A DNA stretch of 64,000 bases, from the NCBI GenBank assembly GCA_002507545.1, contig DAVR01000011.1, positions 1 through 64,000 of the forward strand, given 5' to 3'. Both the position numbers and the translations under genes were made by a program. Source of the DNA: Archaeoglobus sp. UBA230. Its GTDB lineage: Archaea > Halobacteriota > Archaeoglobi > Archaeoglobales > Archaeoglobaceae. The notes under the pieces are model-generated. The model saw only the letters and a list, made by a program, of their open reading frames with translations. It made no database searches and was not told where the DNA came from. Shown here piece by piece: positions 14,626 through 31,236 of the stretch (positions are counted from its first letter, which is position 1; each line of letters begins with the position of its first letter).

Positions 14626-14629
14626 GAAT

Positions 14630-16198: not shown

Positions 16199-16221
16199 TT
16201 TTTGATAGAGTTAAACATATT

Positions 16222-16782: not shown

Positions 16783-16785
16783 ATT

Positions 16786-16814
16786 ACACCCCTCTCTAAT
16801 TCAACATTTATATA
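16786..16814 (+). promoter_or_regulatory. conserved promoter module, copy 3 (large-operon promoter)
   Basis: ACACCCCTCTCTAATTC at 16786-16802 is followed by AACA and TTTATATA at about 16807-16814. It begins four bases after the recombinase stop and precedes the whole rightward run of membrane and secreted proteins. It has the best TATA box of the three copies. Confidence 0.7.
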
Positions 16815-16855
16815 CCTCTTTCATCACACATTAACTGAAACGGGTCGGGGATAGC

Positions 16856-16975
16856 ATGCGAGACTGGTTGCCTTGTGAAGACGGGTTGAACTTTTTTGTT
16901 TTTTTGTTAGCTATCCCCGCCGCCACATCCTCGGCCCGGAAAAGTTGCGGAGGTGAGACTGGTTGGGGAAGGTAG
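16856..16975 (+). CDS. possible 39-residue leader peptide or small membrane protein
   Basis: ATG 16856 opens a frame with a hydrophobic core, LNFFVFLLAIPAATSSA, after a charged N-terminus, ending at TAG 16975 within the next small gene. GGGGATAGC at 16847-16855 and GCTATCCCC at 16910-16918 form an inverted repeat that surrounds the first half. It could be a real small membrane protein or merely part of a structured leader. Confidence 0.35.
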   Translation: MRDWLPCEDGLNFFVFLLAIPAATSSARKSCGGETGWGR

Positions 16976-17124
16976 TTACCCAGTTTAAGAAGACGAAGGG
17001 AATGGGCTACCACTTCAAGAAGGGGCCAGGAGGCACCATGCAGGTAGTGGAGGTGCCGATGAGCGAGCTTCGCAGGAAGCGGAAGAAGGGGGAGAGCGGA
17101 GGTGGAAGGAAGAAGAAAAGTTAG
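16963..17124 (+). CDS. 53-residue basic protein
   Basis: A TTG start at 16963 follows GGAGGTGAG. The product is very rich in Lys and Arg (QFKKTKGMGYHFKK, ELRRKRKKG and a final GRKKKS), as in small nucleic-acid-binding or packaging proteins. It is the first well-supported gene after the strong promoter module. A similar start context (GGTGAGAC, then GGTTG) recurs at the basic protein at 29884. Confidence 0.6.
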   Translation: MGKVVTQFKKTKGMGYHFKKGPGGTMQVVEVPMSELRRKRKKGESGGGRKKKS

Positions 17125-17139
17125 GCGAGGTGATGTTGC

Positions 17140-17787
17140 TTGGTGAAGACTGGTTGGATTGTAGGAGTTTTGTTTGTGCTGGCGATATTGGTTGTGCCAG
17201 CCGCAGCCGGAGTGACTACGCAGTCAAACAGTGCCCTTTCAGTGTCAGTAACGCAGAGCGACCCCATCAAAACAAATGACTTCAACTACGTAACAATAAA
17301 GCTCGATCCCAAGACGAGCTACCCCATCTCCGCCCGTATAGTCATTAAGCCATCGTACTTTGCCATAAAGCCTGAGTGGGTCAAGGGATGCGATGCGATG
17401 AAGACTGGCAGCGGCGTTACATGCACCATCTGGAACTTCCAGGACGAGAAGACGATCAAAGTTGTCATCCCAGGTGCCGTACTGGAAGGTCTTAGCTTCA
17501 AGGATGGAAAAGCCAGGCTGATCGGCGGCGTCGAGGTGTATCCGTTCACCAGCTCGGCTGCCGCAGTGTATGGCGTGGAGGCTAAAAATCTGCAAACTTT
17601 GAGCGTAGAGCCGCCTTTTAGTCAAGCGATAGATACGAATATAAACGTATTCATGGCAATGGTTCTGATAGCTTTCGGAGCTGGCTTAATACTGTTTGGC
17701 ACTAAGAACAATATAGAGCTCGGATCGACGCTGATTCTCTTCGCACTGGCTACGGTAGTTATATTGAACATGTTTAACCTGGGGTGA
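17140..17787 (+). CDS. secreted or virion-like membrane protein with two C-terminal helices
   Basis: This 215-residue protein has a signal sequence (residues 1-23, ending VVPAAAG), an extracytoplasmic beta-rich domain (about 25-160) and two hydrophobic segments near 168-187 and 194-213. The start is TTG 17140 with GAGGTGATG before it; a GTG directly after it is an alternative. It is the first of a series of exported proteins and is small enough to be an abundant envelope protein, but I recognise no family. The following gene overlaps its stop. Confidence 0.75.
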   Translation: MVKTGWIVGVLFVLAILVVPAAAGVTTQSNSALSVSVTQSDPIKTNDFNYVTIKLDPKTSYPISARIVIKPSYFAIKPEWVKGCDAMKTGSGVTCTIWNFQDEKTIKVVIPGAVLEGLSFKDGKARLIGGVEVYPFTSSAAAVYGVEAKNLQTLSVEPPFSQAIDTNINVFMAMVLIAFGAGLILFGTKNNIELGSTLILFALATVVILNMFNLG

Positions 17788-18182
17788 TGGAATTGGAGAG
17801 TAAAATGGCACTTGCCGCAGTTGCAATAGGCTTTCTAACTTTTGTAGTAGGATTTGGCTACTACTTTGGATGGTGGGATCAACTATACGATTATATCCCG
17901 TGGTTCGCCGACAAAGGCGACCTCAAGGTCACAGTTTACGATGCAAAACAAACCGCTGACACTTCTGACGACGTCCCGCTCGCCAACGTAACCGTCAGCA
18001 TATTAAGCACTGAGCTGGTGAAGAAAACCGACGAAAACGGCACCGCCTACTTCAGCGACGTTGATGTCGGCGATTATCAAGTACAGGCGGAGTGGGGATC
18101 TAACGTCCTCGCCAAGAACGTGACCATCACAAAAGACGCGATTGCAACCCTCACCTTCCTGTTCAACGAATCAGCCAGCTAA
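17787..18182 (+). CDS. membrane-anchored Ig-like domain protein
   Basis: This 131-residue protein has an N-terminal membrane anchor (about 8-27) and an external beta-sandwich domain resembling CNA-B/carboxypeptidase-regulatory-like folds (DLKVTVYDAKQ, VPLANVTVSILS, KKTDENGTAYFSDVDVGDYQV). Several Asn-X-Thr sequons suit archaeal N-glycosylation. ATG 17787 overlaps the previous stop by one base. It probably forms part of a surface complex with its neighbours. Confidence 0.75.
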   Translation: MELESKMALAAVAIGFLTFVVGFGYYFGWWDQLYDYIPWFADKGDLKVTVYDAKQTADTSDDVPLANVTVSILSTELVKKTDENGTAYFSDVDVGDYQVQAEWGSNVLAKNVTITKDAIATLTFLFNESAS

Positions 18183-18203
18183 CCTCGAAGGAGGCGAGGA
18201 GCC

Positions 18204-21011
18204 GTGAAGCGTTTTCTACTTTTTTTAGTGTTACTTTTTATTTGTTCAAATGCGGTAGCGTACACACCAATAAAAGGAGAGGTATTCCCAGAGCTTGTCA
18301 CGGTTCATGGGGATTGGGAATGGGCAGGAAGTGGTAGCAGTCCTGGAAATGCAAGAGGCATACCTGATGGAAAGATCGTCAGACTGTTAGGGAACGAAAT
18401 AGACCCTGAGACTGGTGCATATTTGATATATAGGTCAGATGTGCCATTTAATGTAGTTATTCCATACACGGCAGACATACACCTCTCTACTGGAGCGTGG
18501 GGGACAGGGGATGAAGGGGTATGGGTAAGCAAAGATGGGCGTAACTGGGTTGAAGTACCATACCCTGGCACAAGTGAACTTGTCTACGACGAAATAAACG
18601 CCGGAGATATAACCAACGACACGATTCCAGACACAATAGACGTTTACCGCAGTGTAGCAAAACTATCAGATAGCTATACATATGTTAAAATTGGAAAACC
18701 AGCAGGAGCATCAGATCCAAGCATAGAAGTAGATACAGTGAGCGTTATACCGGTTAGTCTCGGAGATGAAAACTCGGAGTACATTCTGGAAGTAAATGGA
18801 ATAGCGTGTGAGGGGATGTACACGGACATATATGTAAAACCAGGGGATACGATAACTGTAAAGGTATTCAAGAGGGGAAGTTTTATCTTTAAAGACTATG
18901 TCGGAAATGCAGACATTTATGTTAACGGAGAATTGTACGGGAGGATACCTCCCGAGTGGACGTTCTGGGTGATAGATAATCCATTTGACAGTCCTCAGTT
19001 TACATTTACACTTACGGAAGAAGGAGATTATGCGATTTACGGAGTGGTTGACGGTGTAAACACAACTTCTGCAATAATACATGTTGGTCAGAGTGTTTCT
19101 AAGAACATAATGATAGACATCGCAGAGATAAAGGGGGAAGCGAGAGAAAGGGTGGATGGTTATGAGATACTTTTCGGAACGGAAGTTGAATTCATAGTAT
19201 ACAACTACGACGATTCGATATGGAACAAGATACCTATCTACGGATGGTGGTTTGTGGAAGACTGGATACCTGCATCGGGTGCAAAAATACTCATTGATGG
19301 AGTAGAAGTTGGGACAACAGACAGCAATGGGCGTTTTGAGTACACTTTCACGAAGCCGCAAGGTGAGCTGTACCATGCGTGGATCGTTCAGGCTGAAAAG
19401 GACGGAGCTATATCAAACCCACTCAGAATCTACGGATATGAATCGTTTGAGGAGTATAATGAGTGGAACGAAACAGGGGCTTATCTAAAAGTTTTCGTAG
19501 GAACTCAGCCAGAATACGGGTCACTGTACATGCCTCTGACAGACGCACAGGTTCAGGTTTACAAGTGGGATTCTAAAGCAGAGACATGGGTGACGCCGGC
19601 AATTTACAGAACCTCATCTAACGGAACAGTTACGATACCAGTACCAGCCAATACGCAGTTGAAGGTTATTGCGGACGCTTGGGGATATGTACCTTCTGAA
19701 GCAGTGTATGTGACATTACTTGAGGGCGAAAAGAAGAGTGTAAGTATCATTCTCAAGCCAATAGGTGATAGTACACCTTACGATGAGTTCTACCTAAACG
19801 CAAAACCAGTGGGTGGAGGAATAGACTACACAGTACCAGTTGGTGGGGAGGTAGAGTTCTGGATAAGCAAGAACAGAAACTCGTGGTCGCCAGAGGTTGG
19901 GGGAACATTGCACGTACTCCTGAATGGCACAGAGGTGATAACTAAAGAGATACCAGCACCAAATGTGCTTGGATTCGGTGGAAAGGCGGTTGTGGCATTC
20001 GAAAATCCTGGAGAATACGTTGCGTATGCGGATGTTGATGGTGTCAGGACTAAGAATCAGATACTCATCAATGTGTTGACCCAATCAGATTATGACCAGT
20101 ACACCGACACATACTACATAGTTGCTGACAAGAATTACGCCAATGTGGGGGAGGAGATAGAGGCGTGGATAACAAGAGGGCAGCCAACACTCGATAAGTC
20201 GGCATCTGTCAGTGGGAAAATTTACATCTATAGGGTTGAAAACAATCAAACCGTAAAATGGAAGGAACTCGAAACGACAACAAATGGATTCTTTATCTGG
20301 AGTCATCAATCGGTAAAATTCACAGCAGTAGAACCTGGAATGTATCTCCTCGAAGGAGAGGTTGGAGGAGTAAAGACAAAGAACAATTGGAAAATAGAGG
20401 TTGGAGAGGGGACGGCAACAGACCCCAATGCAATAAGAATCGGATGGAAGTTAACCAAGATTCCCGATGATGGGAGAAGCACCGCATCAGTAGGATTAGG
20501 AGCTGGAGCTGGTGCAATAATCGGGGCCATTCTCGGTGGGGGGATAGGTGCAATTCCAGGAGCCATCGTCGGAGGTTACTTTGGCAATGGAATCGGCTGG
20601 ATAGCAGACCAGATTGATGACTGGTTCAAAGAGTGGCAGTACGGAGATTCGGTTCTGCAAGCTGGAACCGAAGTGGAATTTGCAATAATTCAGGGAGGAG
20701 AGCTGAAGACTGGGGAGATTTACATAAACGGTGAGAAAATAGCGGTACTGAACAACAACAGCGTAAGGTGGAATTTTGCATCTCCAGGTGAATACGAAAT
20801 AAGGGCGTATTGTGTTGTTGGCTCAGAAAAAAGTGAAGCAGTTAATAGTCCTGTGCACTTCACGGTAGCAGCATCTGGGGCACAGCTCTTCACGAAAATA
20901 TACAACTACCTCCCTGCGATTACTGGAATACCTCTTGTGGACATAATAATCTGTGTAGGAATGCTGCTGGTAGTAATTGCGATAATAAGGGCTGTTCTCG
21001 GAGGTGATTGA
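18204..21011 (+). CDS. giant secreted multi-domain surface protein with C-terminal anchor
   Basis: This 935-residue protein starts at GTG 18204 after GGAGGCGAGG. It has a signal peptide (1-19) and a series of beta-sandwich domains with the recurrent pattern of carboxypeptidase-regulatory or Ig-like units (AKILIDGVEVGTTDSNGRFEYTF region near 365-390, VQVYKWDSKAETW near 450, GEIYINGEKIAVL near 840). A glycine-rich hydrophobic stretch near 765-800 (GAGAGAIIGAILGGGIG) resembles a glycine zipper. A terminal membrane anchor lies near 908-932. It is the best candidate for a spike, adhesin or fusion protein. Its DNA is more AT-rich and uses more A-ending codons than the genes from 22.9 kb on. Confidence 0.75.
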   Translation: MKRFLLFLVLLFICSNAVAYTPIKGEVFPELVTVHGDWEWAGSGSSPGNARGIPDGKIVRLLGNEIDPETGAYLIYRSDVPFNVVIPYTADIHLSTGAWGTGDEGVWVSKDGRNWVEVPYPGTSELVYDEINAGDITNDTIPDTIDVYRSVAKLSDSYTYVKIGKPAGASDPSIEVDTVSVIPVSLGDENSEYILEVNGIACEGMYTDIYVKPGDTITVKVFKRGSFIFKDYVGNADIYVNGELYGRIPPEWTFWVIDNPFDSPQFTFTLTEEGDYAIYGVVDGVNTTSAIIHVGQSVSKNIMIDIAEIKGEARERVDGYEILFGTEVEFIVYNYDDSIWNKIPIYGWWFVEDWIPASGAKILIDGVEVGTTDSNGRFEYTFTKPQGELYHAWIVQAEKDGAISNPLRIYGYESFEEYNEWNETGAYLKVFVGTQPEYGSLYMPLTDAQVQVYKWDSKAETWVTPAIYRTSSNGTVTIPVPANTQLKVIADAWGYVPSEAVYVTLLEGEKKSVSIILKPIGDSTPYDEFYLNAKPVGGGIDYTVPVGGEVEFWISKNRNSWSPEVGGTLHVLLNGTEVITKEIPAPNVLGFGGKAVVAFENPGEYVAYADVDGVRTKNQILINVLTQSDYDQYTDTYYIVADKNYANVGEEIEAWITRGQPTLDKSASVSGKIYIYRVENNQTVKWKELETTTNGFFIWSHQSVKFTAVEPGMYLLEGEVGGVKTKNNWKIEVGEGTATDPNAIRIGWKLTKIPDDGRSTASVGLGAGAGAIIGAILGGGIGAIPGAIVGGYFGNGIGWIADQIDDWFKEWQYGDSVLQAGTEVEFAIIQGGELKTGEIYINGEKIAVLNNNSVRWNFASPGEYEIRAYCVVGSEKSEAVNSPVHFTVAASGAQLFTKIYNYLPAITGIPLVDIIICVGMLLVVIAIIRAVLGGD

Positions 21012-21014
21012 AAA

Positions 21015-22874
21015 ATGAGGTGGATACTGCTACTCGTGTTTGTAATGCTAATAGGAGTTGCGTCGGGAGCGACTATATGCAGCGACTACATACAGTTTAA
21101 CCTCGATGCACCCGCTTCAGCGGATTCGGTTTATAAAATCGTAGTGGACAACACCAGCATAAGCGTTTACAATGCCCTCAACGAACTTGAGATTTCGGGG
21201 ACGAGTGAATACTTCTGGAGCTACACGACGACAGAAATTGCGATTTTGAGTGATAAAGGGGAAGTACCATTCTATATTGAGGAGTGGAACGGCACAACCA
21301 AGAAAGCGGTTCTAAGATTCAAGCTTGTGGAGGGCAGCAGTTATGTGATAGTATGTTTTGGAAGCCAAGGGCAAAAGAGCACGTCAGTTTACAGTTTCTA
21401 CGATGACTTCAACGACCTCGATAACTTTAATGTGTACACGAGTTTAGGCAGTGTAACGGTTGAGAACTCTCTGCTGAAGATTAGTGGTGGGGGAACATCA
21501 ACGAGTTCGGGTTGTAATGCTGTTGAAAGCAAGCAGAAATTTTCACCACCGCTAACGATGGTAATAAAAGTGAAGAGAAGTACACCAGTATGTATAAACG
21601 CTCATCAGGCTTTCGGTTTTTCAGATTCGGATTTGTCTTCAGCACCATACAGCTTTGATTGGGCAAATGTGGTGGTTCACAACCAGGAGTGTTATCCAGA
21701 TTACACATTTTTCATAACGAGAGCCAATGGCAGCCCGGGAGTGAACGAGCAGGTGGTGCTTACACCAAACTGGACTGAATGGAGAACATTCGAAATAGTC
21801 TGGAAGGTTGGAGAGGCAGAGCTGTATGTGGACGGGCAGTTTGTAACTGAAACTACACAGTATATTCCAACAACACAGCTTCCGCTCGTAATTAGTGCTG
21901 GGAACAACTACGGACAGGATACAGTCGTGGTGGATTGGGTGGGAATACTCCCAACAACGGATGCAGCAAATTTTGTCTCTATGGAGAATGTGCACTCGAA
22001 AACGGTTATAGCACCTGGAGGCTTTGTAGAAAAGAGGGCACCATTCCTTATGCTGTTCGACATTCCATTCGTCCCACAGGACAGAAAGATTCTTGCTCTG
22101 CCAACAGTTACAAACTCCGAAAACAGCTACACATTTTACCTGCAAAACGAGGTGGTGGTTGACGAGGATACATACGGCATTCTCTACGAACTAGATATAT
22201 CTGGAACAAAGCCTCATCTGCTTAATTACAACGAGATGACAAAATACGGACGATTTTATGTGGATGGGCAGAATTTGGTGTTTGAAGCAGGTGACGCTAT
22301 AACATCTCAAAACTACAAGCTTGTGGTTATACAGCATCCTATATGGTGGGAGAAGATAGCATGGAGCTTCGGATGGCTGCCAAAACTTGAAGATGTGAGT
22401 GTAGCGAGCACAAAGAATGTTGCTACGAGTTCTGTATCGTCTGAAGCAACAACCCTCGAAGTGTGCAACGGAGGACTTTTCGGCATCGAAGGGAGCTACA
22501 CGACAAACGTTTCAGACATCGAAGTCCACTATGGCGATACGATCTTCGTGAGGGTTGCGGACGGCTCAGGTTACTCCATACTTGTTGACGGAGTCAACAA
22601 GGGCGAAGATAACGCATTCTTCCATGTGGACAAATCATCGGGCACCATCACAATAGAAACTTCCCCTGCAACGCAGACTGTAACCCTCAATGTCACGGGC
22701 TACAACGGATACATGGATTATCTGGCGGGCTACTTCCTCTTCGTCAAATCCAACTGTCCAGCACTGCTCAACAACCTGCTCTTTGATACACTGCTTTGGG
22801 CTCTGCTAATAATCCCAGTTGGGATTGCAATCGGGCTTAAGCTCGGAATAGTTGTTCTCAGGGCTATCCTCTAA
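21015..22874 (+). CDS. secreted LamG/DUF2341-like surface protein with C-terminal anchor
   Basis: This 619-residue protein has a signal peptide (1-18). An N-terminal region of the DUF2341 kind (YKIVVDNTSISVYNALNELEI, AVLRFKLVEGSSY) leads to a concanavalin/LamG-like domain at about 128-310 (SFYDDFNDLDNFNVYTS at its start, TFEIVWKVGEAELYVDGQFV near 270). Further beta domains and a C-terminal hydrophobic anchor (about 587-616) follow. LamG-type domains bind carbohydrate or protein, so a receptor-binding role is reasonable. It begins four bases after the preceding stop and shares that gene's AT-rich composition. Confidence 0.75.
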   Translation: MRWILLLVFVMLIGVASGATICSDYIQFNLDAPASADSVYKIVVDNTSISVYNALNELEISGTSEYFWSYTTTEIAILSDKGEVPFYIEEWNGTTKKAVLRFKLVEGSSYVIVCFGSQGQKSTSVYSFYDDFNDLDNFNVYTSLGSVTVENSLLKISGGGTSTSSGCNAVESKQKFSPPLTMVIKVKRSTPVCINAHQAFGFSDSDLSSAPYSFDWANVVVHNQECYPDYTFFITRANGSPGVNEQVVLTPNWTEWRTFEIVWKVGEAELYVDGQFVTETTQYIPTTQLPLVISAGNNYGQDTVVVDWVGILPTTDAANFVSMENVHSKTVIAPGGFVEKRAPFLMLFDIPFVPQDRKILALPTVTNSENSYTFYLQNEVVVDEDTYGILYELDISGTKPHLLNYNEMTKYGRFYVDGQNLVFEAGDAITSQNYKLVVIQHPIWWEKIAWSFGWLPKLEDVSVASTKNVATSSVSSEATTLEVCNGGLFGIEGSYTTNVSDIEVHYGDTIFVRVADGSGYSILVDGVNKGEDNAFFHVDKSSGTITIETSPATQTVTLNVTGYNGYMDYLAGYFLFVKSNCPALLNNLLFDTLLWALLIIPVGIAIGLKLGIVVLRAIL

Positions 22875-22894
22875 TTTTTCACGAGGTGAGGTCT

Positions 22895-23245
22895 TTGAAG
22901 CGCTGGGTCGGTTTCAGCATGCTGCTCGCATGCGTAATGCTCCTCGCTGTGGCTGACACGGCTCTCACTTTGTACTCTCTAAATACTGTCATCAACGTTT
23001 ACGGGCAGAGCTTAGCTCTGGACTTCGAACTCAACCCTCTATATAGGCTCTCTCCGGAGGCTTTTTTCTTCGCCAAGGGGATGAGCACCGGTATAATAGC
23101 GATTATAGCCTACGAGCTGAGGAGCAGGAACCCAGTCCTGGCGGAGAAAGGTCTGCTGCTCTGCACGGCACTTCTGGCAGCAATCGTCGTCTGGAACCTC
23201 ACAAACATCCTGATCAGCCTTAAAGCTATGGAGGTGATGCGGTGA
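22895..23245 (+). CDS. multi-helix membrane protein (DUF5658-like)
   Basis: This 116-residue protein has three or four hydrophobic helices and the pattern ADTALTLYSLN, then FELNPLYRL, then FFFAKGMSTGIIAI. That resembles archaeal and bacterial DUF5658 membrane proteins of unknown function. TTG 22895 is favoured because GAGGTGAGG precedes it; GTG 22886 is in frame. Base composition shifts back to GC-rich here. The stop overlaps the next start (GTGA). Confidence 0.65.
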   Translation: MKRWVGFSMLLACVMLLAVADTALTLYSLNTVINVYGQSLALDFELNPLYRLSPEAFFFAKGMSTGIIAIIAYELRSRNPVLAEKGLLLCTALLAAIVVWNLTNILISLKAMEVMR

Positions 23246-23421
23246 AGCCTTATTTCACCTTTCTTGGTTTGAGTCTTTTCTTATTCCTCTGCATTGTCTA
23301 CATCAAAACTTTCGGCTATGAAGAGTTCACGAAGTGGTTCATGACCCAAGCAATGAACTATGCCGGGCTTCTGGCTGCGGGTGGGATTATAGCCGACGTA
23401 GTCAGGGAGGCGAGATCGTGA
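23242..23421 (+). CDS. 59-residue membrane protein
   Basis: A GTG start at 23242 overlaps the previous stop, with GGAGGTGATG before it. The product has one strong hydrophobic helix (FLGLSLFLFLCIVYI) and a second weaker one near the C-terminus (AGLLAAGGIIADVV). It ends in TGA overlapping the next GTG. The coupling on both sides supports it as a real gene. Confidence 0.62.
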   Translation: MKPYFTFLGLSLFLFLCIVYIKTFGYEEFTKWFMTQAMNYAGLLAAGGIIADVVREARS

Positions 23422-23666
23422 GCCTTTCGGATTTCTTCAGTAGTGCAGCCAGTCTCTTCACGCAGCTGCAGATAATCACGGGTCTTAGCCCTCTCTCCGT
23501 GATATTCTTCCTGCTTGCCATGTGGAAATCCGCAAAGTCCGCATGGAGCGACAACGACACCATAATCGGTGTAATCGCTCAGCTGGCCTTCTTCATGCTC
23601 ATCTGGTGGCTCACGGGCTACTTGCTGTTCAATCCGATCTGGAATCTAATTCTGGGGAGGTTGTGA
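23418..23666 (+). CDS. 82-residue membrane protein with two helices
   Basis: The start is GTG 23418, overlapping the previous stop; the longer frame from 23334 is rejected because its first 28 residues are the out-of-frame reading of the preceding gene. Two hydrophobic segments (PLSVIFFLLAMW and VIAQLAFFMLIWWLTGYLLF) flank a short polar loop with DND. Such small hydrophobic proteins are typical of envelope or secretion assemblies. Confidence 0.65.
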   Translation: MSLSDFFSSAASLFTQLQIITGLSPLSVIFFLLAMWKSAKSAWSDNDTIIGVIAQLAFFMLIWWLTGYLLFNPIWNLILGRL

Positions 23667-23667
23667 G

Positions 23668-25062
23668 ATGGGTGATGAGCTAAAGTTAGTCGGAATCGCC
23701 ATCGCAGCTCTCGGACTTGCGGCATTTGTTTACGCAGCCTACATCGCCCACCCACCCCTCATCCAGGTCCCAGACTTTGGGAAGTGGCTTGAGGAGAAGG
23801 TTGAACAGGAACAGGCGAAAAACCAGAAGCTCGACCCCGTTCTGCAGCAGCAGTTAGCAGTGAACCCGAAGAAGCCTGTTAGAATGTTCGTGAGTGGCGT
23901 TAATGCGACGGAGCTGGAAAGGCAGGGCTTCAGGGTCGTAAAGGCTGGAAAGTACGCCAGCTGGGCAGTAGTTGAGGGAGACTACGAAGAGTTGCAGAAA
24001 CTCCTCAAAAATCCGAAGGTGCAGAAGGTCCTATACGACCAAAGGGTTAGGGCGATAGGCTTCGCTGATACCCTCTCTCAGATTCCGATTAAGCCTGTTG
24101 TGCAGGACCTGGGCTGGAATCTCGAAGCTATAAAGGCCGACATCGCCCACAGATCGAACTTCACGGGGAAGGGTGCTGTTGTAACAATTCTGGATACAGG
24201 AGTTAACCACAACCTGCCAGACCTCCACGACGGCTACCTCGACGGATACGACTTCGCCTACGGCGATCCCGAGCCGGACGATGTTTACGGCCACGGCACC
24301 GAGTGCGCCTCGATAATCCTGGCGGAGGGAGAGGACAGGTACACGGGCGTGGCCCCTCAGGCTAAGTACTACGCCCTCAAGGTTCTGAACGATAACGGCG
24401 AGGGGAACTGGAGCGATGTAATAGCTGGCTTGGAGTGGGTTCTGGACAAGGTGAACGCCGGCGAGAAGATAGATGTCGTGTCAATGAGCTTGGGTGCCGA
24501 TCTCGCTCCGCCTGAGCTCGAAACTCTCTGCGATTTACTCTACAGCAAGGGTGTCATCCTCGTTGCGGCATCTGGAAACTCGGGAGGAGCAACATCTCTT
24601 TATCCCGCAGCCTACGACACCGTCATCTCTGTCGCGGCGACGGACATATACGGAACGGTAGCGACTTTCAGCAACGGTGGAGCTTTGGTAGCCGCTCCGG
24701 GCGTGCAGGTTCCAGTTTTGAGCAGCGACGGCAACATCTACTACGGAGATGGTACGAGCTACGCCGCACCTCACGTCGCCGGAGTTCTACTTTTAGTCGA
24801 GGCGGAGAAGGACATCACGCCCGGGCAAGCGGAGACGCTGATTAAGCTCAGCACCGATGAGATCAGTGATCCCAATAGCAAGGTCGAGTACGGGCAGATT
24901 AACGCCGTCAAGGCAATCAACAACGCCCTCAACCTGAACCTGTCGGAGGAAAGAAGCTGGTACGAGTATCTGAACGAGCCTTGGGCTCAGATTTTGGTGG
25001 GTTTGGCTGTTCTGACTGGAGCTTTGAAGTTTGTTGTCTGGAGACAGGAGGGAGGTGAGTAG
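23668..25062 (+). CDS. membrane-tethered subtilisin-like serine protease
   Basis: This 464-residue protein is an S8 family protease. The triad is intact: D176 (TILDTGVN), H209 (YGHGTECA) and S364 (GDGTSYAAPH), with oxyanion N304 (ASGNSGG). Residues 1-27 form an N-terminal membrane anchor, about 65-130 an inhibitor_I9-like prodomain (VRMFVSGVNATELERQGF), and a second hydrophobic segment lies near 438-456. Anchoring at both ends outside the cell is unusual for subtilisins. It sits among the structural-looking genes, so it may process envelope proteins during maturation or cut the host S-layer. Start and end abut the neighbouring genes. Confidence 0.92.
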   Translation: MGDELKLVGIAIAALGLAAFVYAAYIAHPPLIQVPDFGKWLEEKVEQEQAKNQKLDPVLQQQLAVNPKKPVRMFVSGVNATELERQGFRVVKAGKYASWAVVEGDYEELQKLLKNPKVQKVLYDQRVRAIGFADTLSQIPIKPVVQDLGWNLEAIKADIAHRSNFTGKGAVVTILDTGVNHNLPDLHDGYLDGYDFAYGDPEPDDVYGHGTECASIILAEGEDRYTGVAPQAKYYALKVLNDNGEGNWSDVIAGLEWVLDKVNAGEKIDVVSMSLGADLAPPELETLCDLLYSKGVILVAASGNSGGATSLYPAAYDTVISVAATDIYGTVATFSNGGALVAAPGVQVPVLSSDGNIYYGDGTSYAAPHVAGVLLLVEAEKDITPGQAETLIKLSTDEISDPNSKVEYGQINAVKAINNALNLNLSEERSWYEYLNEPWAQILVGLAVLTGALKFVVWRQEGGE

Positions 25063-25458
25063 TTGAACCAACATCTTAAAACTGGGATTTTGGGCATGTT
25101 TGGATACTGGATTACCCTGTTCTTCATGGAGTGGATTGTTTTCAGGGGATTTGGATTGCCTGACCAGTACGTTCTAAGGATTTGGGCTTTCGCAGACTTA
25201 TTCGGAGATGGGACATGGAGAAGCTTGGAGTGGCTTGCAGACCACGAATGGATCGCGATGGTTATTGACTATGTCTTTGAAGGCCTGATAGCATTTACAG
25301 CAATCGTTGCACTGTCTATCTTGGTTTCGAGAGGCATTCTGAAGTACTTCGCCGGAATTGTGGTGATCTGCATTTTCTTGGTCATCTGGATGCTCGTAGT
25401 GATTGCTGAAGGGGTTGTAAGTGGTGTGAGGGCAATTAAGGAGGTCGTGAGAGGATGA
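25063..25458 (+). CDS. three-helix membrane protein
   Basis: This 131-residue protein starts at TTG 25063 directly after the protease stop, with GGAGGTGAG upstream. Hydrophobic segments lie at about 8-28, 70-90 and 94-118, with a Trp-rich loop between the first two (WAFADLFGDGTW). No family is recognised. It is coupled by a four-base overlap to the next gene. Confidence 0.72.
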   Translation: MNQHLKTGILGMFGYWITLFFMEWIVFRGFGLPDQYVLRIWAFADLFGDGTWRSLEWLADHEWIAMVIDYVFEGLIAFTAIVALSILVSRGILKYFAGIVVICIFLVIWMLVVIAEGVVSGVRAIKEVVRG

Positions 25459-25718
25459 TTAACATCAGATTCAAGAATGGAGGAGCGAAGAAGCTTAACA
25501 TAATCAAAGTCCCCTACACCGAGCAGGAACGAAAGGAGATAGAGAGGCAGAAAGGGATTCTGGAGTTCGACATCAAACGTCTGGAAATTGATCTACAGCA
25601 CATAAACGACCCAGAAACTCGCAAGTTTGCTGAAAAGCGTTTGGAAGAACTCAGAAGCGAACTGAATGCTCTTGATACTGTTCTCAGGCTCGCAGGAGGT
25701 GGAGGAGGTGGACGTTAG
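25455..25718 (+). CDS. small cytoplasmic coiled-coil protein
   Basis: This 87-residue protein is mainly a charged helix (ERKEIERQKGILEFDIKRL, AEKRLEELRSELNAL) with a Gly-rich tail (GGGGGG). The tail codons GGAGGTGGAGGAGGT double as the ribosome binding site of the next gene, so its odd C-terminus may be dictated by that signal. It may bridge membrane proteins to the ATPase, an inference from location only. Confidence 0.7.
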   Translation: MINIRFKNGGAKKLNIIKVPYTEQERKEIERQKGILEFDIKRLEIDLQHINDPETRKFAEKRLEELRSELNALDTVLRLAGGGGGGR

Positions 25719-26841
25719 GAGAGCTATTGCCATAATCCTACTTACTTTCGTGACCCTGCTACTCTACGGTGTGGTAGCCATTGCTATGGTTCAAGCATCT
25801 GAGGTAAACGCATTCCTGATCTGCAATGAAGCTGGCGGTGAGATAATCAGAACAGACAAAATCCCAAATGCAACAGTTTATCTCTACATTCAGGCTAAAA
25901 ACACAACGATTGCAGAAATGCAGCTATCTATCAAGTATTTCAGTCAGTCAATGAACCTGACGAACATCTCAGCTCTCGAAGGAAACTGGAGCTTCGGATA
26001 TGCAATCGCAAAAGGAGACTCAGGATATTCTTACATCAAGATTGACGCAGTAGGAAAACCAACATCCAGATTGGTTTTCGCATTTAGGTTCAGCTTCAAA
26101 GAGGAAAGAACAGGACTGTTCGACATCGAAATAGACCTGAATCACTCCTACATTTACGACAAAAATCACACGAGGTTAAATGTAACGTCAACACAGCAGT
26201 CCATTACGGCTTTCCTCATGAATCCTACAGTTACCACTCTAACACCAACTCCAACCCCTACACCAACACCTAAACCGACCCCGACACCCACACCAACACC
26301 CACGCCAACTCCGTCGTACTGCAATGGCACGGACTGTGCTTGTCTTAAACCCTCTATCTACTTCACGTACAATAACAGCACGACTTCAGAGCTGTACATC
26401 GGTGGATACATCCACTTTCCAAAAACAATAGCGGACAGAATCAAAGTTACAGGCGGGGTTATCGAGAGGGAGGATCAGACCGGATGGAGGATAAGGGTTA
26501 CGCAGAGCGTTGTTAACGTCCAGTACATCAAGCTCTCCAGCGAAGACTTCAGCTACACAACTAAAACATTCAAGGCCAAAGAATATCCAGCCGAGCTCTA
26601 CAGGCCAGTAAGCCCAGATGAGATGAGGCTTAAGCTCATCGAGCTGAACAGCAAACTCGCTGAGTTCGAGAAATATCTGAAGTCCATAAAATCTGAGGTA
26701 AAGGCTGCGGCTGAGAAGCCCACCGCTGGGGAGCAGCTGATGGGCTTCCTGCTCTATTTTCCACCGATGTGGGTGGTTTACGCAGTGCTGGGAGTTACGG
26801 GATTTTTGGCAATCGTAGGGTGGTGGTATGAGAGGAATTAA
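25708..26841 (+). CDS. surface protein with Thr-Pro repeat linker
   Basis: This 377-residue protein starts at GTG 25708 after the Gly-rich GGAGGTGGAGGAG. It has an N-terminal membrane helix (about 6-30), an external beta domain rich in glycosylation sequons, a Thr-Pro dipeptide linker encoded at about 26238-26312, a second external domain with CNGTDCACLKP, a helical stalk (LNSKLAEFEKYLKSIKSEV) and a C-terminal membrane helix. The layout resembles the dockerin/cohesin-type exported proteins of Archaeoglobales, and CohE-like beta domains are possible for the first half. It is probably a stalked surface component. Confidence 0.72.
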   Translation: MDVRRAIAIILLTFVTLLLYGVVAIAMVQASEVNAFLICNEAGGEIIRTDKIPNATVYLYIQAKNTTIAEMQLSIKYFSQSMNLTNISALEGNWSFGYAIAKGDSGYSYIKIDAVGKPTSRLVFAFRFSFKEERTGLFDIEIDLNHSYIYDKNHTRLNVTSTQQSITAFLMNPTVTTLTPTPTPTPTPKPTPTPTPTPTPTPSYCNGTDCACLKPSIYFTYNNSTTSELYIGGYIHFPKTIADRIKVTGGVIEREDQTGWRIRVTQSVVNVQYIKLSSEDFSYTTKTFKAKEYPAELYRPVSPDEMRLKLIELNSKLAEFEKYLKSIKSEVKAAAEKPTAGEQLMGFLLYFPPMWVVYAVLGVTGFLAIVGWWYERN

Positions 26842-27199
26842 GTTGTTCAGGCGAAGACGGGTTGAGGAGGGTGAGGCCAGAAGCGAGAGGAGAGGCGTTT
26901 CACCAGAGATTCTGGAGGGCTTGGTGTTCTTCCTGAACTCCGTGGTTTTTCTGGGTTTGGGTACAACCATCCTGAGGCTTAGCGATGTTGCCAATGTCCA
27001 CCTCTGGAGGATCCAGGTTGTAACTCCTGACTATGTCCAGTACGTGGGCTACGGGTACATTGTGGGCTACACACTTGTGGCATACTCGGTTATGCAAATG
27101 TTCCTCTCAGCTCTGAAGCTGTACGCTGCAAAGGAGAGAAGGAGAGTTGAGGTCTTGGTTAGGTCAGTGCAGCGAGAGGTGGTGGAGGATGCTTCCTGA
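26828..27199 (+). CDS. two-helix membrane protein with basic ends
   Basis: This 123-residue protein overlaps the preceding gene by 14 bases. A basic N-terminus (IKLFRRRRVEEGE) is followed by hydrophobic segments near 29-50 and 71-98 and a basic C-terminal helix (KERRRVEVLVRSVQREV). Both termini are probably cytoplasmic. Family unknown. Confidence 0.7.
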   Translation: MRGIKLFRRRRVEEGEARSERRGVSPEILEGLVFFLNSVVFLGLGTTILRLSDVANVHLWRIQVVTPDYVQYVGYGYIVGYTLVAYSVMQMFLSALKLYAAKERRRVEVLVRSVQREVVEDAS

Positions 27200-28085
27200 C
27201 CCGATGGTGCTTATCTTCACACTGTCGATAGCACTGGCATCATCAATAATCATCTATCTGATTGCAAAGGCAGGAAGGAAAAGGAGGAAGATAGAAGAGG
27301 CCGAGAGCACACTTGAGCAGGTAGGCATCACGATCCCACGGGAGGAGATAAAGAAGATCATTGAGGAGGAGTCAAAAAGAGAACTGGAGCAGCAGATCAG
27401 AGAGGAGGCTGAGAAAGAGGCGGAGAAGAGGTTGAAGAAGGCCACCAGAGGGCTGCACAAGGCGAGAGGACAGAAGATCACAATCTGGTACGACGAGCAG
27501 ACGGCTTTTGGGGAGGGGAACATTGTGCTCGGAAAGCTCCACAGCTACGACAGGCTCAGCCTCGACGGCCTCCACGGTTACTACGTCTTCTACTACTTTC
27601 CCGTTCACAACAGCATATTCCTCAACGGCATTCAGGCTATAGTCAAACTGTTCGGTAGGGGGAAGAAGAGGCTTGAGGTTCCAGAGGAGCTGATCCTCAG
27701 TATCAGTCCAAAGGAGATAATCATCCACGCCAAAACTCTCCAAACGATTGATGGCAACACATTTAGAGTAGTACCACCGGAGCGTATAGAGCCAGTTGTA
27801 GAGGAGAATCGTTTCCTCAGAAAGGCCTACAAACGCCTTACGGAGCTGAACACCGAGCTGCTGAAGGACATGAGCAGGGCCGTGAAGCTGTCCGTCTTCA
27901 CCAATCCGTTCTTCAGGCAGTACTACTATCAGCAGAGGCTCCTGCAGGGAATTCTTAGCGATGAGGAGATAGATGAGTTTTACGCCCTTGAGGGCAAGAA
28001 ACTACGGGAGGAAAGGATTAAGAGAGCAACAGAGAAGTTGAAGAACCTAAATGCGAGGATCGAGGGAGGGGAAAGGTACGTATGA
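27189..28085 (+). CDS. membrane-anchored coiled-coil protein
   Basis: This 298-residue protein starts at ATG 27189 after GGTGGAGG. A single N-terminal helix (LIFTLSIALASSIIIYLIAK) anchors a long charged coiled coil (about 30-95, rich in EEE and KRL patterns). An alpha/beta domain follows (about 100-210: KITIWYDEQTAFGEG, YYVFYYFPVHNSIF, LILSISPKEIIIHAK), then a helical C-terminus. The bulk is cytoplasmic, so it could dock the ATPase two genes downstream to the membrane. Confidence 0.7.
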   Translation: MLPDPMVLIFTLSIALASSIIIYLIAKAGRKRRKIEEAESTLEQVGITIPREEIKKIIEEESKRELEQQIREEAEKEAEKRLKKATRGLHKARGQKITIWYDEQTAFGEGNIVLGKLHSYDRLSLDGLHGYYVFYYFPVHNSIFLNGIQAIVKLFGRGKKRLEVPEELILSISPKEIIIHAKTLQTIDGNTFRVVPPERIEPVVEENRFLRKAYKRLTELNTELLKDMSRAVKLSVFTNPFFRQYYYQQRLLQGILSDEEIDEFYALEGKKLREERIKRATEKLKNLNARIEGGERYV

Positions 28086-28609
28086 GCGAGCTTGAGAGGA
28101 TCGGCAGACTGATGCTCTACAGGAACAGGATCTTGGAGAAGCTGCTGAGAGAGATTAGCAAGGACTTTCCCAACATGGAGATCGTGCTGGAGGAGTTCGA
28201 GAGGCTGCTTGAGGCCATAGACGACCTGGACAACGAGACTATCCACACAATTGCGAAGCTGAAGGAGAAGAACTCTCCGGTCATTGAAGATGAGTCAGAG
28301 GCAAAAGAGACTGACCAAGCTGAGGATTTCGAGGACTGGCTGGCAAGCGCCCTAAACTCGCTCAACGGCAGCGACAACCTGAAGAATTACCTTTTGACGT
28401 TAAAGGAGCTTGGAGGTGTTGCCCCAACCACAAAAATAAGTAGGATGCTAGGGCTGAAGAAGCAGACAATCTCAGACATAGAAAAAGAGCTCGAATCAAA
28501 GGGTCTGATCGGGTCCATTTTCATAGCAGACAGGAAGGTCGTCTATTTCAATCATTCCAAGTATAATGGAATGACTATGAGCGAACTCGGACAGGTGCTC
28601 AGAAAATGA
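28082..28609 (+). CDS. winged-helix protein with helical N-terminus
   Basis: This 175-residue protein overlaps the previous gene by four bases (ATGA). Residues 1-90 are acidic helices. Residues 100-170 form a winged helix (APTTKISRMLGLKKQTISDIEKEL, then GLIGSIFIADRKVVYFNH). It may link DNA to the membrane complex or regulate the operon. It directly precedes the ATPase gene, a position that would suit a DNA-recognition subunit for packaging or transfer. Confidence 0.72.
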   Translation: MSELERIGRLMLYRNRILEKLLREISKDFPNMEIVLEEFERLLEAIDDLDNETIHTIAKLKEKNSPVIEDESEAKETDQAEDFEDWLASALNSLNGSDNLKNYLLTLKELGGVAPTTKISRMLGLKKQTISDIEKELESKGLIGSIFIADRKVVYFNHSKYNGMTMSELGQVLRK

Positions 28610-28639
28610 TGGACGAGTCCGGTGGGAGGTCCGACGGAC

Positions 28640-29863
28640 ATGCTACTAAAATATAATACTGCAAGGCTCCAGCTGCCAAAGAGGAAGGACGACGGGTACA
28701 TTCCGCTTAGACTTGTCTATCGGGGCTGCGAGAATGCGGTGAAGATAGGTTACAGAATAGGCCACCGCACGCCCTGGATGCAGCCCCACTACTTCAACCC
28801 CTCCGCCTACTCCGTCGAGAAGGGCAAGGTGATCCTAGTCGTGGCGAGTAAGGGAATAGGAAAAACGAACCTCATGCGAAACGTCATTCAGGCCTACTAT
28901 CGCACAACCAGGAACCCCATCATAGCTTTCCAGGAGAAGAAGGATGACCTGAACTTCAACCGCACACCCTCGCTCAGGCAGATAAGTGAGGCTGGGATCG
29001 AGAGGATAAGGCTTGCTCCGCCGGAGGGCTGCAGTTCACCTCAGCGGAGGCTGATTCCGCTGGGAGAGGTGAAGGATCGGGACGAGGTTAGGCTGAAGAT
29101 ACCGCTTGCCGAGTTGGATTTCTCTACCATCAGCGAGTACTTCGGCAAGCGGATGTCTTCTACTGTTGCAGGACTCGTGCTGGAGAGGGTCTGGCAGAGC
29201 AGGGAGAACCACCTCACCATCGACGACCTCATCGATGCGGTGGAGAACGAGCTTTGGAGGTTTCAGGAGGATCCCTACTTCAACACCATGGTGCTGCACG
29301 TCCGCCGCTTCATCGAGCTGCTCAGGATGGACCAGCTGCTTGAGGTGAACAGAGCCAGGAGCGTTCACAGCTACATCCACCCAGAGCAAATCAACATCGT
29401 GGACCTCTCGGATCTGGGAGACATAGATGTGAAGAGGTTCGTTGTGGCCCAGATGCTCAAGATGATCGAGAGGGCTTACAAGAGGCAGGAGTGCTTTATC
29501 GGAATAACAGAGAGCCACATCTACGCACCTGAAACGGGCGATTTTGAGGCGAAGAGGGAGATAATAAGGTTGGTTACCGTGCTGGCGAGATCCTACGGCT
29601 GGACAGTGTTTCTGGAAACTCAGTCACCGGATGCCCTTGAGAGGGTCGTGCTTGAGAACGCCGACGAGATATACATTCTGGGGTACGTACAGCGAAGCAA
29701 GCTCACCAAGCTGATAAGGACCGCAAGCGTCAACTTCGAGGGTTTTCTGGATATTTTTTATAAGGTTGTGGATAACATTCCTAAGGGGATGGGTGTTTAC
29801 GGCTCGGCTGCGGATCCCACCAACCCTTACGTAGTGAGGATCCAGCTGAGCCCCGTGGGATAA
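28640..29863 (+). CDS. HerA/FtsK-like P-loop ATPase, candidate DNA-packaging or transfer motor
   Basis: This 407-residue protein is a RecA-fold ATPase related to HerA, VirB4 and viral packaging ATPases. Walker A is ASKGIGKT at residues 69-76. A HerA-like strand INIVDLSDLGDIDVKRFVVAQML lies near 251-273, and the Walker B region CFIGITESHIY has E291. The usual double-acidic Walker B of HerA (EEAH) reads ESH. LETQSPDALERVV near 340 matches the sensor region. ATG 28640 has GGGAGG ten bases upstream; GTG 28622 is an alternative. It closes a run of membrane proteins, as the ATPase does in archaeal pleomorphic-virus and vesicle modules. Confidence 0.82.
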   Translation: MLLKYNTARLQLPKRKDDGYIPLRLVYRGCENAVKIGYRIGHRTPWMQPHYFNPSAYSVEKGKVILVVASKGIGKTNLMRNVIQAYYRTTRNPIIAFQEKKDDLNFNRTPSLRQISEAGIERIRLAPPEGCSSPQRRLIPLGEVKDRDEVRLKIPLAELDFSTISEYFGKRMSSTVAGLVLERVWQSRENHLTIDDLIDAVENELWRFQEDPYFNTMVLHVRRFIELLRMDQLLEVNRARSVHSYIHPEQINIVDLSDLGDIDVKRFVVAQMLKMIERAYKRQECFIGITESHIYAPETGDFEAKREIIRLVTVLARSYGWTVFLETQSPDALERVVLENADEIYILGYVQRSKLTKLIRTASVNFEGFLDIFYKVVDNIPKGMGVYGSAADPTNPYVVRIQLSPVG

Positions 29864-29883
29864 GTTGAAGGAGGTGAGACGGG

Positions 29884-30174
29884 TTGCCGAAGCGGAGACG
29901 TGTTGCAACTCGCCCTCAGCGGGAGAAGACGACGATAAGGTTTAAACAGCAAGCCCGCTTTGAGGGCGAGGACTACGTTGTGTACGGTAGGAAGGGTACT
30001 GGGATAAGGACGATTTTTCCAAAGCCACAGAGACACCCGAAATTTGCCACCGCCAAGTTCGGCGAGGAGTTTCCAGTCTGGTGGAAGGGACGCTGGTATG
30101 TAGCTGTGAAGTCAGCGAGGAAACAGGAGAACCGCGCCGCAGTCCCCTGCTTAGTGTGGGAGGTAGAGTCATGA
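29884..30174 (+). CDS. small basic protein
   Basis: This 96-residue protein has a TTG start preceded by GGAGGTGAG. It is strongly basic, with an Arg/Lys-rich N-terminus (PKRRRVATRPQREK) and an aromatic beta-rich core (FPVWWKGRWYVAVKSAR). Nucleic-acid binding is likely. It overlaps the next gene by four bases. Its start context is nearly identical to that of the basic 53-residue protein at 16963. Confidence 0.65.
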   Translation: MPKRRRVATRPQREKTTIRFKQQARFEGEDYVVYGRKGTGIRTIFPKPQRHPKFATAKFGEEFPVWWKGRWYVAVKSARKQENRAAVPCLVWEVES

Positions 30175-30761
30175 AGCCCGCTGCACTGCTGATGCTCTCC
30201 CTGATGATTGCAGCCCCACTCGGACTGGCTCTGGAGGACGTAGCAGACCAGCTTTACCTGCACATCATGGACCTCGGCAGGATGCTCCGTATAGTCAGCG
30301 ACGATGCCTACGACAACGCCGTCAAGGCCATCATGGAGAAGTACGAGCACAGGTTGAGGGAGCTTGAGCAGAAGGGCAGGGCTGATACGGCAGAGTACAT
30401 GGAGATCCAAAAGCGGTACGAGAGATTCGCAGAAATGTACACTGAGGAGACGGACAACGACTTGGAGATCGTGGAATACTCCGTTGACTTGGATGTGGGA
30501 ACGGCATCTGTGACTCTGAAAAACATAGATAGCAAACCGATCGACTACATAACGGGCTTCGTGAAGGTCGTAGGACCTGACGGTAAGGTCAGCGAGTTCA
30601 GTGCCCCATTCCCTGTGCCGCTGAACCTGAAGCCGAACGAGACGAAGACCTACACCGTCGAGATCTGGGGATGGAGTCATGGCATGTACACCATACACAG
30701 CGAGGTCTGGAGGTGGAACGGAGACAAGATTCTGGAGGCCACCATAACACTCGATGTCTGA
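30171..30761 (+). CDS. secreted protein with coiled coil and Ig-like domain
   Basis: This 196-residue protein starts at ATG 30171. It has a signal peptide (about 1-21), a helical region (about 25-100, EKYEHRLRELEQKGRA) and a C-terminal beta-sandwich of FxLYD/CARDB-like character (ASVTLKNIDSKPIDYITGFVKVVG; PLNLKPNETKTYTVEIWGW). No C-terminal anchor is visible, so it is either released or held by partners. It is the last gene of the large rightward operon. Confidence 0.75.
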   Translation: MKPAALLMLSLMIAAPLGLALEDVADQLYLHIMDLGRMLRIVSDDAYDNAVKAIMEKYEHRLRELEQKGRADTAEYMEIQKRYERFAEMYTEETDNDLEIVEYSVDLDVGTASVTLKNIDSKPIDYITGFVKVVGPDGKVSEFSAPFPVPLNLKPNETKTYTVEIWGWSHGMYTIHSEVWRWNGDKILEATITLDV

Positions 30762-30823
30762 CCCATGATTCATCGAACTTCAATTTTTTACACACGGAAA
30801 GTTTAGGCGAGAGGGAAAGCCTG

Positions 30824-31183: not shown

Positions 31184-31236
31184 ATAATTCAGCAACGCAG
31201 CTTATTTATACGACTTAGTCCACAATTACTTAGCTT

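Follow-up and report, generated by a model that had tools for sequence, protein, structure and literature searches.

A probable self-transfer operon in a tRNA-targeted integrative element of Archaeoglobus sp. UBA230

A 64,000-nucleotide stretch of Archaeoglobus sp. UBA230 (GenBank assembly GCA_002507545.1, contig DAVR01000011.1, positions 1 to 64,000 of the forward strand; hereafter the window) contains a long run of genes for membrane, secreted and ATPase proteins, and raises the question of what such a run might build. The original prediction placed at 16786-30761 a large operon that may build a particle, vesicle or transfer machine. Here, we find that 18 consecutive plus-strand genes span 16963-30761 with intergenic gaps of -14 to +21 bases, and that this operon is probably the self-transfer module of an integrative plasmid of Archaeoglobi. 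The run is co-directional and nearly gap-free, as had been described, and the components then listed (basic, anchored beta-rich, small membrane and coiled-coil proteins, a subtilisin, a winged-helix protein and a HerA-like ATPase) are present where they had been placed. The end of the run stands while its start moves, as the first gene begins with a TTG codon at 16963 and 16786-16962 is a leader. A particle, vesicle or transfer machine is still the best-supported reading; the operon is sporadic, lies in an integrative element and has a motor and adaptor resembling t26-14p and t26-15p of plasmid pT26-2, and the assembly of any particle is putative. The view that no component was recognisable from pleomorphic viruses or plasmid vesicles needs correction, as two components remotely belong to the pT26-2 plasmid family, and a larger integrated element around the run (4745-34135) had been missed.

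The operon, its motor and its surface proteins

With starts picked from Shine-Dalgarno-like sites and the sequences of relatives, the operon opens with a very basic 53-residue protein, followed by two anchored beta-rich proteins, surface proteins of 935 and 619 residues and three small membrane proteins. Next are the genes for a membrane-tethered subtilisin, a further membrane protein, a small protein whose composition is helical, a beta/coiled-coil protein that is anchored and has a Thr/Pro linker, and another membrane protein. The last five products are the coiled-coil adaptor with its membrane anchor, the winged-helix protein, the HerA-type ATPase, another basic protein and a secreted protein (Table 1). 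When the longest open reading frames (ORFs) are used, 99.4% of 16963-30761 is coding. Membrane segments, signal-peptide-like N-termini and C-terminal anchors, including those of the 935- and 619-residue proteins, are predictions of a hydropathy scan, and the labels "beta-rich" and "coiled-coil" were read off the sequences and their domain matches. Three Pfam families match above cut-off, namely subtilisin (PF00082), the HerA central domain (PF01935) and, in the 619-residue protein, DUF2341 (PF10102); carboxypeptidase-regulatory-like, glycine-zipper and MarR-like matches fall below it. The subtilisin and HerA-type ATPase assignments are certain. The genes themselves are real: the operon recurs in relatives, and 11 of the 18, those compared with genome G006 (genomes are cited by our own handles), have ratios of nonsynonymous to synonymous substitution rates (dN/dS) of 0.03-0.28, values that are approximate for the five genes in which dS exceeds 1.3. 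By this measure, the 11 compared genes are under purifying selection.

The pT26-2 family is described as restricted to Thermococcales and Methanococcales and as having a core of seven genes, an ATPase and a conserved region of 12 genes, many of them for membrane proteins, and a role in DNA/protein transfer has been proposed for it (PMC6972569). We compared 28 families of the window with 26 families from pT26-2, pGE2 and pMEFER01 using hhalign, giving 728 pairs (the 59-residue gene at 23242-23421 was left out). The E-values of hhalign refer to single comparisons, and pairs were judged by rank, by the 728-pair background and by decoys of 80 column-shuffled trials per pair, a shuffling that does not model order along the sequence. 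Three pairs stand out: a gene common with pGE2 (score 122), the ATPase with t26-14p (score 86, probability 97.2, decoy maximum 30.3) and the adaptor with t26-15p (score 53, probability 92.7, decoy maximum 29.7), the next score being 34. The ATPase also matches pMEFER01 by single-sequence blastp (E 1.3e-6), and the adaptor aligned with pMEFER01 alone reaches a probability of 81.7 over residues 70-218 of 262. We take the ATPase and adaptor to be remote homologues of t26-14p and t26-15p, core proteins whose genes are neighbors in pT26-2; the window counterparts stand in reversed order with one gene between them.

Other core proteins of the family gave no comparable signal. Pairs involving t26-4, 5, 6, 7, 8, 11 and 13 stay within the hhalign background, at which structural homology may go undetected, the best being the 935-residue protein with t26-5p (score 34, probability 7.5). 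For t26-6p, a protein of two Ig-like domains and one helical domain, the Pfam families PF22092, PF22265 and PF20984 match the plasmid protein itself, and a scan of 10 operon proteins at E 0.1 found none of them. Both t26-9p (7084-7332 of its own record) and a pMEFER01 protein are short with two hydrophobic stretches and may resemble mating pilins; neither has a match in NCBIfam. The element resembles the family in its one-directional module of membrane/secreted proteins with a HerA-type ATPase, in tRNA-targeted tyrosine recombinases and in one variable gene common with pGE2, and has a small basic protein as pMEFER01 does. It differs in that its adaptor carries an N-terminal membrane anchor and is placed before rather than after the ATPase, in its additional subtilisin and winged-helix genes and in its Archaeoglobi host. 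Integration at a tRNA gene by a tyrosine recombinase, as in the family, is predicted from sequence, and the five named relatives are all Archaeoglobi, outside the family's host range. Membership in the pT26-2 family was rejected because the other core proteins went undetected; sharing the engine and not the whole core, the element falls outside the published definition and is a distant relative.

The predicted ATPase model (mean predicted local distance difference test, pLDDT, 58; predicted template modeling score, pTM, 0.62) finds HerA as its best fold match, with 4d2i first (E 2.5e-10, template modeling score 0.55), followed by weaker viral, FtsK-like and conjugal-transfer folds; a sequence search of the PDB gave two weak matches. 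Its top fold matches thus liken the protein to the hexameric DNA translocase HerA, from which it differs in an identity of 13-17% (ten best rows), a length of about 410 residues and a Walker B aspartate replaced by threonine. CedB, a DNA-import ATPase, is the weak best NCBIfam match for five of six Archaeoglobi ATPases and for t26-14p, the best of these reaching 32 bits (G055) against a cut-off of 700. The ATPase and its plasmid relatives have in common a Walker A motif and a downstream Arg/Thr-Gln pattern, and Walker B reads DE in the three plasmids pT26-2, pGE2 and pMEFER01. In the window ATPase, Walker B lies at 29495-29521 (residues 292-300), with Thr296 in place of the aspartate. Sequence and model place the motor in the HerA/FtsK/VirB4 superfamily, with which both packaging and conjugation are compatible. 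Against plasmid sequences, the ATPase gave only weak bacterial matches (E >=0.2); no relative of the ATPase or adaptor appeared among phage records, or in IMG/VR pattern scans with the ATPase, the ATPase alignment, the adaptor alignment and the pMEFER01 ATPase. A first genome-contig scan with the pMEFER01 ATPase found nothing, as did a scan with it of 392 genomes of the phylum, the latter lacking a positive control and hence uninformative.

The large surface proteins vary in a manner that bears on their possible role. By tblastn, the 935-residue protein matches G006 over residues 688-932 only, the 619-residue protein over 474-619 only, and the linker protein (25708-26841) over 225-391 and the signal region only. 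Matches to G055 fall instead in residues 187-614 (935-residue protein) and 4-458 (619-residue protein), and G012 has the counterparts of these two in swapped gene order; the differing matched regions and swapped order indicate that the large surface proteins are modular. Relative to G006, the nearest relative, membrane-proximal ends appear constant and exposed parts replaced, as would be expected for recognition proteins. Charge recurs as well: wherever a locus extends to the operon start, as four do, a basic protein stands there (net charge per residue +0.25 to +0.35), and another follows the ATPase in five operons (window +0.15, G006 +0.11, G012 +0.27, G038 +0.19; in G055 a near-neutral ORF of +0.04 comes first, then +0.12 to +0.19). 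The 71 greedy window ORFs of at least 90 residues average 0.00 (standard deviation 0.04) and none reaches +0.15, the protein at 29884-30174 falling just short of it.

The integrated element and its distribution

By its sequence, the operon is the largest module, about half the length, of a site-specific integrative element of ~29.4 kb (4745-34135). The element is bounded by a 16-bp repeat of the tRNA-Met 3' end, which is the sole match of at least 15 bases common to 1-17200 and 30000-45000 and the sole direct match of at least 12 bases to the tRNA-Met region elsewhere in the window. Plain arithmetic (64,000 positions, 4^16 words and a handful of placements at the tRNA end, with base composition ignored) puts the chance expectation of such a repeat at ~1 per ten thousand windows. 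On the right, DNA similarity to three genomes of the genus (G001, G002 and G004) ends at 34105-34120; in G003 and G005 the contig breaks off within ~110 bases of the tRNA and so says nothing about this boundary, and G007 lay outside the comparison. Beyond tRNA-Met the sequence is ordinary chromosome, with several genes of metabolism besides gyrA. Chromosomal DNA forms the left flank as well, yet it lies far from tRNA-Met in relatives. Besides the genes for recombination, replication and regulation in Table 1, the element encodes proteins with sub-cut-off TFIIB-zinc-ribbon and SprT matches.

The flanks at 1281-4634 (a HerA/tRNA-Ser locus) and 34105-36613 (gyrA) are ~540 kb apart in the complete genome G001 and fall on different contigs in G002-G007. 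This reflects either a chimeric assembly or a chromosome rearrangement mediated by elements, a process that is reported for TKV2/TKV3 (PMC6972569).

In Archaeoglobi the operon is sporadic. Full-length ATPase relatives were found in 6 of the 59 genomes of the class and, within the same operon, in five of these 59 (G000, G006, G012, G038 and G055), the class and phylum sets being samples of genomes. The G038 contig is 7.5 kb long, so genes absent there say nothing, and G180 has only the ATPase and a basic protein like that at 29884-30174 recognized side by side. An ATPase fragment with three in-frame TAA codons lies near a recombinase and tRNA-Ser in G005, and weak ATPase matches occur in G308, G009, G008 and G047 (17-27 bits) and G026 (36 bits). 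In 84,980 species genomes, a pattern-based scan found five loci, every one of them in Archaeoglobi and among them those of Archaeoglobus sp. GB_MAG3_049, JdFR-42 and Candidatus Mnemosynella biddleae; as such a scan misses distant relatives, five is a lower bound.

Homologues of the 400-residue recombinase are found in G006 (84% identity), G180 (65%), G012 (51%), G055 (39%) and G005 (37%), adjoining tRNA-Met in G006, tRNA-Phe in G180 (with Orc1), tRNA-Asn in G055 and tRNA-Ser in G005, and coming after the operon in G012; none is present in the examined stretch around the G006 operon or on the short G038 contig. A weaker case is G055, where 12 bp of the tRNA 3' end are repeated at a distance of 31.9 kb; no such repeat was found for G180 or G005. 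G006 carries a related element at tRNA-Met, which keeps the recombinase, Orc1 and regulator and lacks the transfer operon at the corresponding place; this element and the operon are on two contigs (G006:C36 and G006:C2). Among the titles and abstract openings listed in our searches of open-access papers, none describes such an element in Archaeoglobi. One paper tabulates pT26-2-type integrases with Archaeoglobales hosts, a statement limited to the integrase (PMC8371274), and another describes a different, 9.5-kb provirus-like element, ArcVen-P3, in Archaeoglobus veneficus (PMC4158269).

Possible export form and rival explanations

The haloarchaeal plasmid pR1SE is reported to be transferred in vesicles containing plasmid proteins, and vesicle transfer was inferred for 40 further plasmids that carry its core, which includes a large protein with a variable N- and constant C-terminus (ORF6), a subtilisin (ORF7) and a VirB4/HerA-like motor (ORF25); most plasmids of this type carry Orc1/Cdc6 or MCM, and integration occurs (PMC10818511). 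The Archaeoglobus element is like these plasmids (apHPVs) in layout, with a variable-tip large surface protein, an S8 subtilisin, a motor, Orc1 and integration, and unlike them in that their motor and surface proteins have no sequence match to the element. For this comparison, pHTUR05 and pHALXA03 were chosen with the host names in PMC10818511 as a guide, and in our reading of their layout both appear to be of the pR1SE type. Profiles of 17 operon families were compared with 21 pHTUR05 proteins, combined with pHALXA03 counterparts when available; of the 357 pairs, the subtilisin alone rises above the rest (31.8% identity, 63 bits, blastp E 1.4e-14), and no homologues of ORF6, 8, 9, 17, 21, 23 or 24 appear. 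At least 60 plasmid subtilases, among those listed, score better than the pHTUR05 match, at 72 bits or more, and four haloarchaeal plasmid neighborhoods of such subtilisins (4 of the 60 listed) are not pR1SE-like in look. A candidate ORF25 of pHTUR05 (24498-26846) was chosen by eye, a Walker A pattern search having found none, and scored 12.3. At its end this candidate motor has a weak, sub-cut-off hit to the winged-helix family HVO_A0261_N; in the window, the winged-helix protein is encoded by a gene of its own ahead of the motor. Membership in the pR1SE type was rejected on the features tested, as only the subtilisin matches and is not specifically close, and the element would be better said to work like pR1SE-type plasmids than to belong to them.

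Based on these comparisons, we propose that the element excises and replicates, that the adaptor (27189-28085) would dock a hexameric HerA-type motor on the membrane, and that the winged-helix protein (28082-28609) may help load DNA. The motor could then drive DNA of the element into, or through, a patch of membrane that carries the anchored surface proteins, with the subtilisin maturing these proteins or opening the S-layer, the variable tips recognizing recipients, and the very basic proteins encoded at both operon ends condensing the DNA. By analogy with pR1SE, a plasmid vesicle is more likely as the export form than a conjugation channel, because of the putative condensing proteins, the subtilisin and variable-tip coat and the one motor, and because no relaxase or coupling protein has turned up so far. 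More tentatively, and as a possibility toward which we do not yet lean, the element may represent an undescribed class of self-packaging integrative plasmids in hyperthermophilic Archaeoglobi, pairing a pT26-2-type motor and adaptor with a surface coat that is processed by the subtilisin, has variable tips and resembles the coat of haloarchaeal plasmid vesicles.

The pT26-2-type plasmids had been reported from two archaeal orders only (PMC6972569). With a relative from a third lineage, the motor and adaptor can be seen to stay constant and the surface coat to be exchanged, and the element joins a pT26-2-type motor and adaptor to features of pR1SE-type plasmids, namely a subtilisin and surface proteins with variable tips. 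Should the combined class be real, pT26-2 and pR1SE-type plasmids may be variants of one widespread archaeal mechanism of vesicle-mediated DNA transfer. The system also makes the choice between vesicles and conjugation testable by defined gene deletions.

Conjugation by cell contact, through a minimal VirB4/HerA-type motor and uncharacterized membrane partners as in pT33-3 or Sulfolobus plasmids, is a serious alternative that we nevertheless consider unlikely. It would accord with the weak CedB matches noted above and with the small membrane proteins at 23418-23666 and 26828-27199, kept in five of five loci, which could be pilin- or channel-like; archaeal conjugative plasmids have moreover been described with only VirB4-/VirD4-like genes and no known relaxase. 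However, PF01935 finds one motor in the element rather than a VirB4/VirD4 pair (VirD4 models were searched over part of the ORFs), the small membrane proteins tested have no NCBIfam match to pilins or Ced components, and no relaxase occurs among the proteins scanned, which are a subset of the ORFs. Likeness to the Ced system, pT33-3 and pNOB8 lies in the HerA/VirB4-superfamily motor and the CedB profile match, which is far below the family cut-off, and neither a second motor nor a recognizable channel protein was found. A provirus of a pleomorphic virus with membrane proteins unlike known ones has, in our estimation, a low probability: a membrane virion could account for the spike-like anchored proteins, the protease, the motor and the DNA-condensing proteins, and the ATPase model also matches viral ATPases, but the remote relatives are plasmids and no relative was found in three IMG/VR pattern scans or in phage records (ATPase and adaptor). 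Weak PHROGs matches of the 935-residue protein (tape-measure, E 0.07; endolysin, E 0.02), the winged-helix protein (a collar family, E 0.07) and the ATPase (terminase, taken up below) are scattered, and include no spike or capsid family among 10 operon proteins.

The operon could instead be element cargo, a contact-dependent secretion or conflict system that moves proteins and not DNA. Variable surface, lectin-like and subtilisin domains are found in archaeal adhesion and conflict modules. Deletion of the pT26-2-type elements TKV2 and TKV3 of Thermococcus kodakarensis is also reported to slow growth (PMC6972569). A HerA-type motor beside very basic proteins suggests DNA, however, the operon makes up about half of the element, and no toxin/immunity pair was noticed, although no systematic search for one was made; we give this explanation little credence. 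Finally, signal sequences, anchors and a subtilisin would fit an ordinary host S-layer or secretion operon that sits here by chance, and the original prediction had named clear homology to such a locus, or conservation as a core chromosomal operon, as what would overturn it. Neither was found: the operon occurs with its ATPase in only 5 of 59 class genomes, attachment repeats enclose it together with genes for replication and recombination, and none of the proteins scanned matches a secretion or S-layer family of Pfam or NCBIfam above its cut-off, leaving a host operon very improbable.

Several points weigh against a self-transfer module of an integrative plasmid, which we continue to favor. 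The evidence is all drawn from sequence, with particle, excision and transfer as predictions, and each of the five relatives that have names is a metagenome bin. Most proteins of the operon lack a match among the pT26-2 and pR1SE-type proteins tested, and the ATPase matches none of the 21 pHTUR05 proteins, its best score (22.6 over 9 columns) being background. Walker B reads TE and not DE in all six full-length Archaeoglobi ATPases, which is unusual for a translocase; the adaptor model is unusable (mean pLDDT 45); and the weak PHROGs terminase match of the ATPase (E 0.003) would suit a virus equally. As the left flank is not next to tRNA-Met in relatives, the left boundary is drawn solely from the repeat. 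The G006 operon lies on a different contig from the recombinase/Orc1 module, and the modules therefore separate. CRISPR-spacer evidence is nil, with one short match (G010:C6) inspected and lacking a repeat array, and no spacer collection searched.

Features of the operon and element, and minor observations

Table 1. Predicted features of the integrative element in the window; counts of 5/5 loci include the window.
Feature	Position	Strand	Evidence
Left attachment repeat ATGCCGAGGGGGGGAT, 16 bp, copy of tRNA-Met 3' end	4745-4760		Exact match
PCNA-like sliding clamp, 239 aa	10541-11260	+	PF00705 E 4.2e-12; PF02747 E 1.4e-7
Plasmid gene common with Pyrococcus plasmid pGE2	14254-14625	+	37% identity, blastp E 5.6e-20; hhalign probability 99.4
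ArsR-type winged-helix regulator	15559-16101	+	PF01022 E 1.9e-9; DNA matches in several other genomes
Small tyrosine recombinase, 214 aa	16138-16782	+	PF00589 E 2.8e-7; 88% identical in G012
Leader/promoter, TATA-like box, outer inverted repeat	16800-16962	+	Alignment with G006, G012
Very basic 53-aa protein, net +13	16963-17124	+	Homologues G006, G012; basic protein in same position in G055
215-aa protein: signal sequence, beta-rich ectodomain, C-terminal anchor	17140-17787	+	Hydropathy scan, sequence
132-aa N-anchored protein, carboxypeptidase-regulatory-like	17784-18182	+	PF13620 E 3e-6, below cut-off; 4 loci
935-aa surface protein, glycine-zipper segment 760-798, C-terminal anchor	18204-21011	+	Pfam, hydropathy
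619-aa surface protein, DUF2341, weak lectin/GH16-like region, C-terminal anchor	21015-22874	+	PF10102 24.7 bits, cut-off 23.4
119-aa small membrane protein	22886-23245	+	DUF5658 E 8.7e-4, below cut-off; homologue in G006 only
59-aa small membrane protein	23242-23421	+	Similar 58-aa protein in G038, pairwise score 66
Two-helix membrane protein, GTG start 23418, longest ORF 110 aa	23418-23666	+	5/5 loci
Membrane-tethered subtilisin, 464 aa	23668-25062	+	PF00082 E 1.6e-42; Asp/His/Ser motifs 5/5 (window and four relatives)
131-aa small membrane protein	25063-25458	+	Hydropathy; homologue in G006 only
87-aa small cytoplasmic protein, helical by sequence	25455-25718	+	Homologue in G006 only
Signal sequence, variable domain, Thr/Pro linker, conserved beta + coiled coil + C-terminal anchor	25708-26841	+	C-terminal part kept in 5/5 loci
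123-aa small membrane protein	26828-27199	+	5/5 loci
Membrane-anchored coiled-coil adaptor, remote t26-15p homologue	27189-28085	+	hhalign probability 92.7, score 53
175-aa winged-helix protein	28082-28609	+	MarR-like E 1.7e-4, below cut-off; 5/5 loci
HerA/FtsK-type DNA-translocase ATPase, remote t26-14p homologue	28622-29863	+	PF01935 34.4 bits, cut-off 23.2; hhalign 97.2, score 86
96-aa basic protein, net +14	29884-30174	+	Orthologues G006, G055, G180; other basic proteins after ATPase in G012, G038
196-aa secreted beta-rich protein, signal sequence	30171-30761	+	Hydropathy, relatives
Orc1/Cdc6 replication initiator, 370 aa	31771-32883	-	NCBIfam NF001624 382 bits, cut-off 354; homologues G180, G006
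Tyrosine recombinase with zinc ribbon, 400 aa, adjoining tRNA-Met	32843-34045	-	PF00589 E 1.8e-23
Right attachment repeat, 3' end of tRNA-Met	34120-34135		tRNA-Met 34121-34194, minus

The leader (16800-16962) has zero Rfam matches and, as DNA, folds no better than shuffles (z -0.5). An ORF starting within it at 16856 was dropped, its frame being poorly kept in G006 as judged by eye. Conservation of the leader extends to G006. In G003, the upstream AbrB-like gene (so named by eye) and the promoter are the same and different genes follow, as if cassettes were swapped behind one promoter.

A DNA search with 12000-31700 in 57 genomes gave short matches; that in G010:C6 sits in or beside an ordinary gene, and most of the remaining short matches fall on the Thr/Pro-linker or coiled-coil stretch. 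Near the left edge of the window, at 37-1239, a second zinc-ribbon tyrosine recombinase lies beside tRNA-Gln and is perhaps the trace of another element.

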